This document shows, piece by piece, positions 48,006 through 49,089 of a DNA stretch of 64,000 nt (position 1 is its first letter; the number at the start of each line of letters is the position of its first letter). The stretch covers positions 62,001 to 126,000 of the forward strand of contig JAHHGX010000079.1 of assembly GCA_019359675.1 (NCBI GenBank). The letters run 5' to 3'. Source of the DNA: Calothrix sp. FI2-JRJ7. GTDB taxonomy: Bacteria > Cyanobacteriota > Cyanobacteriia > Cyanobacteriales > Nostocaceae. A program made the translations under genes and the position numbers. The notes beneath the pieces are model-generated. The model worked only from the letters and a program-made list of their open reading frames with translations. It did not search any database and was not told the origin of the DNA.

Positions 48006-48200
48006 GAAACGCCCTACTTCAAATATAAAATATAAAATTCATTAAGAATTCTAAAGCCTTACAGTTAGAAAAACGACATTTTTTTACTTGATAATTTACG
48101 TAGAACAGAGACAAAAAGAAACTGTATATCTATACACGATGGCACCAAGCTTAATTATGCCTTCATCAACCGATATTGTTACATTTCGTAATACTCGCTA

Positions 48201-48318: not shown

Positions 48319-48439
48319 CAGGGTAGCATCTAAAAGATTTTTATGTTGTTTAAAAGTAAAGTTATAAACCGTTTTTAGATAAACATGTATTATCAAGTAG
48401 CGACTGTTACATTATTCTTTCTTAAGATAAGTAATACAA

Positions 48440-49089
48440 ATGAATAAAACATTCAAGATATCTTACTCGTGGGAAAAGTTAAGCGAGTCTGATTATTTTT
48501 TTGAGATAGTAGATGCCACTAAAATATTTACATCCTTAAGCTACAGGACTTACGCATAAAATCCTAGAAACCCGGTTTCTTCTTTGAAATCTGTTATAGA
48601 AATGACGATTTTGCGTAGAAACCGGGTTTCTTAGCGTAAGTCCTGAGCTATTTTCTTTCGCTTTACAAAGGGCAATTTATTGTCAGTGTTCAGGAACATG
48701 ATGCTTGCTTCGACTTGCGTCCTGACCTATCTACTATATTTGAAGATATTCCTCTTGTATTGTCCCAACTCACAAAAGATACACACTCACCAGTCGAGTT
48801 TGACTTTTTTGAACAGGGTACGGATGTGGGAATGTTTATGGAGCGTCAAGGTAATACCATTAAAGTTCGTTTTGAGACAAGTGGCGCCTCTGCTATGAGG
48901 TTTCAGTTTTTGCCAGATACCAGTATATCAGTTTCAGCATGGGAATTTTTAGCACAGTGGCTCCAATTTATTAAAACGATAATAGATGCTTTAGTGGAAC
49001 TTCAACCAGAGCTTGTTTTGGATGAAAGTTACAAAGAGTATGTCACAAGTCTAAAGGTTGTGGAAGAACATATTTCAATACGAATTTAG
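48440..49089 (+). pseudogene. Unknown gene split by a 102 bp MITE
   Basis: From the ATG at 48440 the frame reads MNKTFKISYSWEKLSESDYF then FEIVDATKIFTSLS and hits a TAA at 48557-48559 inside a repeat. The 3' part (48651-49089) reads LSLYKGQFIVSVQEHDACFD then LRPDLSTIFEDIPLVLSQL and continues to VEEHISIRI. Removing the element plus one copy of its AGCTA duplication joins the two parts in frame, giving 180 codons. An in-frame TTG at 48715 could still give a 124-residue remnant. The family is not recognised; there is no signal peptide and the intact protein would be soluble and acidic. Confidence 0.8.
48544..48645. mobile_element. 102 bp MITE, full-length GAAACC family member
   Basis: Terminal inverted repeats CAGGACTTACGC (48544-48555) and GCGTAAGTCCTG (48634-48645) are perfect 12-mers. 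Flanking AGCTA (48539-48543 and 48646-48650) is a 5 bp target duplication. Inside, AGAAACCCGGTTTCTT and AGAAACCGGGTTTCTTA form a second, inner palindrome pair around GAAATCTGTTAT and ATTTTGCGTAG. The inner part matches the repeats at 3007, 6948, 17329, 34739, 36142, 44609 and 52559. It carries no gene, so it would depend on a transposase encoded elsewhere. Confidence 0.88.

Follow-up and report, generated by a model that had tools for sequence, protein, structure and literature searches.

The window analysed here is the whole 64,000-nucleotide stretch of contig C79 from the Calothrix sp. FI2-JRJ7 assembly (G000:C79:62001-126000; 8.66 Mb in 91 contigs). At positions 48440-49089, a 180-codon gene is split by a 102-bp element (48544-48645) that has perfect 12-bp inverted ends and is flanked on both sides by a duplicated AGCTA. 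An earlier, sequence-only reading had described the element, its ends and its target duplication in these terms; the letters match exactly, and two identical copies of the element lie elsewhere in the genome. The features of the locus are listed below.

48440..48543, + strand: 5' part of the gene (codons 1-34 plus two bases, first AGCTA included), from translation; corresponds to residues 1-34 in the uninterrupted homologues
48539..48543, + strand: target-site duplication, left copy AGCTA, from the sequence; exact 5-bp duplications occur at 41/57 paired ends
48544..48645, no strand: MITE, 102 bp; identical to G000:C91:385707-385808 and G000:C91:329282-329383
48544..48555, + strand: left terminal inverted repeat CAGGACTTACGC, from the sequence; equals the ends of the insertion sequence (IS)
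48557..48632, no strand: interior palindromic repeat; the unit is also present in the genome without IS ends
48566..48580, no strand: inner arm AGAAACCCGGTTTCT, complementary to 48617-48631; central base covaries with the other arm
48617..48631, no strand: inner arm AGAAACCGGGTTTCT, pairing with 48566-48580; central-base covariation
48634..48645, - strand: right terminal inverted repeat CAGGACTTACGC, exact reverse complement of the left one; equals the IS ends
48646..48650, + strand: target-site duplication, right copy AGCTA, from the sequence
48651..49089, + strand: 3' part of the gene (439 nt with the stop), from translation; corresponds to residues 36-180 in the uninterrupted homologues

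The interrupted genes and their intact homologues

Joining the two gene parts (104 nt + 439 nt) yields 543 nt, i.e., 181 codons with the stop, and the translation and the empty-site frame agree with the earlier claim that the join reads through without stops. The wording of that claim, an 'exact excision', stands as far as the computed restoration of the frame goes; as a biological event, excision was not seen. With the joined frame as the query, matches were obtained in 4 of 41 genomes, including the genome under study, where just the two halves were retrieved. The uninterrupted homologues that the sequence-only reading had anticipated in related genomes do exist: four copies in three other genomes span the join. 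Two of them belong to Calothrix sp. NIES-4105 (G003; residues 1-180, 79% identity each), one to Calothrix sp. PCC 7716 (G002; residues 1-151, 80%, in a frame that stops early, at 159 codons) and one to G020 (residues 1-174, 61%). A named scan likewise gave four loci—two in Calothrix sp. NIES-4105, one in Calothrix sp. PCC 7716 and one in an uncultured Trichormus MAG—and, when the copies of the search that included G020 are set against these loci, three of the four are the same places in both searches. The extra 107 bp, which homologues were not expected to carry, is present in none of the four copies or the four named loci, and matching is continuous across the join; in the alignment, SLSYFLSLYKGQF runs unbroken through L035 and L033 at the position of the MITE in the window.

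Pfam searches with the two protein pieces and the NIES-4105 homologue, and NCBIfam searches with the 3' piece and the homologue, returned nothing above cut-off, and we therefore assign no function to the interrupted gene. One NIES-4105 copy sits after two small frames without assigned function, and the neighbours of the two copies in this genome (a 186-codon frame at one, a 165-codon frame at the other) gave no family above cut-off. An immunity- or antitoxin-like role of the interrupted genes, considered from their look and neighbours, is not claimed here. Upstream of the gene, between positions 48200 and 48330 of the window, lie two copies of GTCATGCTGAGGTACGTTAACGCAGTTTTCCCG, which by eye resemble a dispersed repeat within the MITEs L072, L073 and L076.

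Flanks were also joined computationally at 15 duplication-confirmed sites with long flanks (among L001-L030), and frames of at least 80 codons were sought. Site-spanning frames emerged at four sites: the window copy (180 codons), the sister copy L001 (115), L002 (108, crossed at the fourth codon) and L029 (81); the homologue comparison covered the first two. Eight of 31 genomes, among them the genome under study, match the 115-codon frame split by L001. Stop-free, full-length homologues (1-115) occur in NIES-4105 (77%) and G007 (70%), G012 covers 1-94 at 68%, and a paralogue on contig C72 of the same genome covers 1-114 at 72% with one TGA inside. Three weak matches (32-35%) in G002 and G004 also span the join. 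Further matches in NIES-4105 (42-115, beginning near the join), G005 (66-115) and G026 (57-115) do not cross the join and thus do not test it. Hence two of the three identical copies split frames whose homologues span the join, which bears out the earlier contention that the element can enter genes.

Copies of the element and its probable partner insertion sequence

A BLAST search of the genome with the 102-bp sequence returned at least 43 matches, end-less copies included (scoring covered 40 of the 381 first-look candidates). Among the matches listed, three copies are identical over all 102 bp—the window copy, duplicating AGCTA, and two sisters, duplicating ATTAG and AAAGT—and the flanks of the three are unrelated. 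We then considered 104 loci of this genome, gathered by BLAST and by the end pattern and hence not an unbiased census; they contain 57 end pairs with a spacing of 40-700 bp and no more than two substitutions per 11-bp end. An exact 5-bp duplication is found at 41 of these 57 pairs, and 47 have one with at most one mismatch, while exact repeats of 2, 3, 4, 6, 7, 8 and 9 bp occur at 3, 3, 1, 0, 0, 0 and 0 pairs, respectively; with permuted right flanks, exact 5-bp duplications averaged 1.1 and never exceeded 6 (2000 rounds). The other 16 pairings lack an exact duplication, some resembling chance pairings and some older copies. The ends and target-site size that had been read off a single insertion thus hold across many copies. 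The duplicated targets are 83% A+T, and the interiors of the 41 elements comprise an AAACC repeat with a 16-nt addition (21) or without it (15), a TGAGCG..GAGATTC repeat (2) and others (3). In many older MITEs of this genome, a C end is paired with a T end.

Folded as DNA together with its duplications, the window element forms a single long hairpin of -32.8 kcal/mol (shuffle mean -8.7, z -9.64). It contains no open reading frame of 60 codons or more in the list of frames, all three Rfam matches on 48400-48800 fall below the gathering score, and a plasmid collection searched with the MITE gave no match. As strings, CAGGACTTACGC and AAACCCGGTTTCT have no match in open-licence literature texts, from which we claim no absence from print. 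The element is short and non-coding, carries terminal inverted repeats, duplicates a target of constant length, exists in dispersed copies and has ends matching those of an autonomous element; these properties support its identification as a MITE inserted in a gene, which was the interpretation of the earlier reading. The transposase group, the identical sister copies and the end-less occurrence of the interior were beyond the reach of that reading.

The autonomous counterpart left its mark on the assembly itself. Twenty-one contig ends run into an IS with the ends of the MITE (9 left-end and 12 right-end junctions; L074 was omitted from the latter count, as it does not lie at a contig end), and all of them, e.g., C79:1-125, halt 119-127 bases within the same IS, which is therefore one cause of assembly breaks. 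At least one right junction with a fitting 5-bp flank exists for five of the nine left junctions (7 pairings and four distinct flanks, one of which occurs twice on each side), against one pairing in each of two control comparisons. The locus omitted above, L074 (G000:C68:204121-204165), is a 45-bp near-perfect palindrome of two IS ends in nose-to-nose arrangement with hardly any sequence between them, and it lacks a direct target duplication. No IS body was retrieved from the assembly of the genome under study, and a search of it with NF049921 detected no transposase above cut-off (two weak matches, the best at 2.6e-11 and 44.9 bits versus 250)—presumably because the repeated IS bodies remained unassembled.

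Full-length relatives were found elsewhere, and with them a transposase type for the CAGGACTTACGC ends, which the earlier reading had proposed to look for: IS copies with these ends and 5-bp duplications are present in Calothrix (NIES-4105), Nostoc and Planktothrix. The NIES-4105 IS has the same ends, measures 1392 bp, is flanked by the duplication CATAA and has a right end 93% identical to that in the genome under study; its transposase frame is broken, with the first piece scoring 258 bits with NF049921. The plasmid collection held 35 records with relatives of the IS, three of which were delimited. The Planktothrix agardhii copy, annotated as ISPlag1 family, spans 1306 bp (duplication TTCAA), the Nostoc sp. 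ATCC 53789 copy spans 1248 bp (ATAGT) and the Nodularia copy has TAGGACTTACGCAACTGGCA ends, with no target duplication found; the intact transposases of all three score 408-418 bits against the NF049921 (transpos_IS701_2) cut-off of 250. More distant members, L175 and L176 (in G006 and G025), are IS701_2 elements that have T- in place of C- at their outer ends (TAGGACTTACGCATTGAC) and are flanked by 5-bp duplications; a second NIES-4105 element has similar ends, with no duplication found. According to a passage in PMC2266710, almost all IS701 members generate a target duplication of exactly 4 bp. The NIES-4105, Planktothrix, Nostoc, G006 and G025 copies have 5 bp instead, and we therefore speak of an IS701_2/ISPlag1 type and not of a classical IS701 member.

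The interior repeat and the possible origin of the MITE

A MITE insertion of the ISPlag1-type family is an event of a known kind; less expected is the interior of the element, which is a repeat also found without IS ends and not an IS remnant. The interior (48557-48632) consists of two 15-bp palindromes flanking a spacer. Across 63 sequences picked by length, with pairs counted on a consensus fold, the two palindromes covary at their central base (U-A 20, C-G 16 and G-C 14 of 62). Two-sided changes fill 39 cells, against a mean of 14.6 and at most 31 in shuffles that ignore relatedness, and 31 of the 39 come from the central-base column. L100 and one copy in L004, which lie on a long tree branch, carry the spacer between the inner palindromes in the opposite orientation with respect to the outer ends, as recombination between the inverted arms might produce. 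L172 (G000:C75:124000-124500) holds the interior repeat as a tandem array whose period, judged by eye, is about 52 bp.

Two accounts of how such an interior came to lie between IS ends have to be weighed. We consider it possible, at somewhat less than even odds, that ISPlag1-type ends repeatedly captured free-standing palindromic repeats to form MITEs: at least the AAACC-N-GGTTT and the TGAGCG..GAGATTC repeats, the former perhaps more than once, with the recent 102-bp element of the window separate from the bulk of older MITEs. The alternative, which we regard as unlikely, is that the MITE arose from an ISPlag1-type IS by plain internal deletion (or is an old MITE) and that the free-standing interiors are MITEs that lost their ends. 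One 496-bp element of the same genome, L083, does appear to be an internally deleted IS, with a pair of ends similar to those of the IS and a 5-bp duplication. For the window element, deletion sits poorly with the comparison to the NIES-4105 IS, with which the MITE has the outer 13-14 bp at each end in common and, inside, words of 7-8 bp at most.

The distribution of the ends likewise argues against gradual loss. Of the 95 interior matches from this genome and its relatives, both ends are present in 64, one in 8 and neither in 23; one element in L004 was entered twice, once per strand, so that the first count is at most 63. Mismatches at the left end number 0-3 in 65 copies and 5-8 in 30, with none at 4, and chance flanks give 5-9; gradual decay would fill this gap, and most end-less copies are therefore unlike a decaying tail. 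Right-end mismatches, from a wider offset search than that of the left end and without a control, number 0-3 in 66 copies, 4 in two and 5-8 in 27. Moreover, the interior nearest to that of the window among the 95 copies is the end-less L006 (93.4%), with the best both-ends copy outside the identical trio at 90.7% over 75 bases. The flanks of one end-less copy are shared between the genome under study and G005 (L014, L049).

In the poorly resolved tree of interiors, the three identical copies fall in an open 16-row fork (both ends in 7 rows, one end in 2 and none in 7), separate from a 46-row fork that holds the bulk of this genome's MITEs. As drawn, the tree requires 12 or more changes of the label 'both ends' (shuffled mean 26.3), while the starred branches force two. 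For the label 'no ends', the starred branches force a single change, so that a single origin of the end-less copies would also fit this tree, in which 61 of the 85 inner branches are open; the end-less copy L171 lies among the MITE bulk. With so few forced changes and so many open branches, repeated capture of the AAACC repeat is suggested rather than demonstrated.

A second type of interior enlarges the picture. L072 (154 bp) and L073 (152 bp) have the same ends around the TGAGCG..GAGATTC repeat, an interior with at least 35 matches in the genome (40 of 63 candidates scored). Of the 30 matches fetched, two are L072 and L073; among the remaining 28, a loose test for an IS end within about 250 bp was negative for 23. 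In our opinion, this possible capture of free-standing repeats by IS ends deserves to be followed. If it is true, a MITE would be born by the acquisition of ends around an existing hairpin repeat and not exclusively by internal deletion of an IS, and this genome would be one in which such a birth can be traced copy by copy—from the bare repeat, to the repeat with IS ends, to recent identical offspring.

Insertion into the gene and comparison with known elements

Taken as a whole, the locus is best read as the recent insertion, at AGCTA, of a non-autonomous MITE served in trans by an IS701_2/ISPlag1-type transposase, a reading to which we assign a probability of roughly 92%. According to this model, full-length IS with the same ends would supply a DDE transposase of this type in trans, which would recognise CAGGACTTACGC(A), move the 102-bp unit and duplicate 5 bp of the target. 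The MITE would recently have entered AGCTA in codons 34-35 of the 180-codon gene, shifting the frame such that a stop is met a few codons into the element, and the gene would be inactive as a result. Mobilisation in trans by the ISPlag1-type transposase is probable, judging from the common ends. The insertion is also probably recent, since three copies are identical and both gene parts are still open, and the function of the gene has presumably been lost, given the predicted frameshift and the stop inside the element.

It is improbable that a shortened protein is still translated from the 3' part, beginning at an internal TTG at 48715: an open frame of 124 codons does exist from this position, but in the four homologues inspected the frame begins with an ATG that corresponds to the upstream start of the interrupted gene. 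Still far less probable is a reversible on/off switch through precise excision of the MITE at a useful rate, since open frames on both sides—restored exactly upon removal of the element and one AGCTA—are expected of any recent insertion, the second state was not seen in the one assembly examined and the three identical copies have unrelated flanks. The preferred reading, a MITE inserted through a transposase acting in trans, provides a homologue-proven cyanobacterial example of genes split by a MITE, together with the type of transposase that is its probable mobiliser.

Dispersed palindromes of several kinds invite comparison with the interior. REPINs have inverted tags. In the MITE interior, TAG precedes each palindrome (GTAG the right one), and these tags stand in direct and not inverted orientation, so that the interior differs from a REPIN in this respect. 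By description, the interior can be likened to the REP or GTAG-tagged repeats treated in a passage of PMC3733652 (with families such as GTAG-12, -15 and -16), both being dispersed palindromes; the interior repeat likewise occurs outside IS ends and, at one locus, in tandem. The GTAG-15 dimers reported there within long palindromes of A. variabilis offer a further parallel, namely palindromic repeats nested in another inverted-repeat unit; unlike for the MITE, the passage in question does not describe the outer palindrome as consisting of IS ends with target duplications. Nezha, a cyanobacterial MITE (Zhou et al. 2008, as cited in passages of PMC3733652 and PMC10969869), is by description a small non-autonomous element like the 102-bp MITE. 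A passage of PMC9366434 reports ISPlag1 itself as the most abundant IS group, by copy number, in 13 Planktothrix genomes and as known for inactivating and deleting the mcy cluster. The MITE differs from an ISPlag1-type IS in having neither a transposase gene nor, in comparison with the NIES-4105 copy, the IS interior; with ISPlag1 and its relatives of the IS701 group, it has in common the outer ends CAGGACTTACGCA and the 5-bp target duplication.
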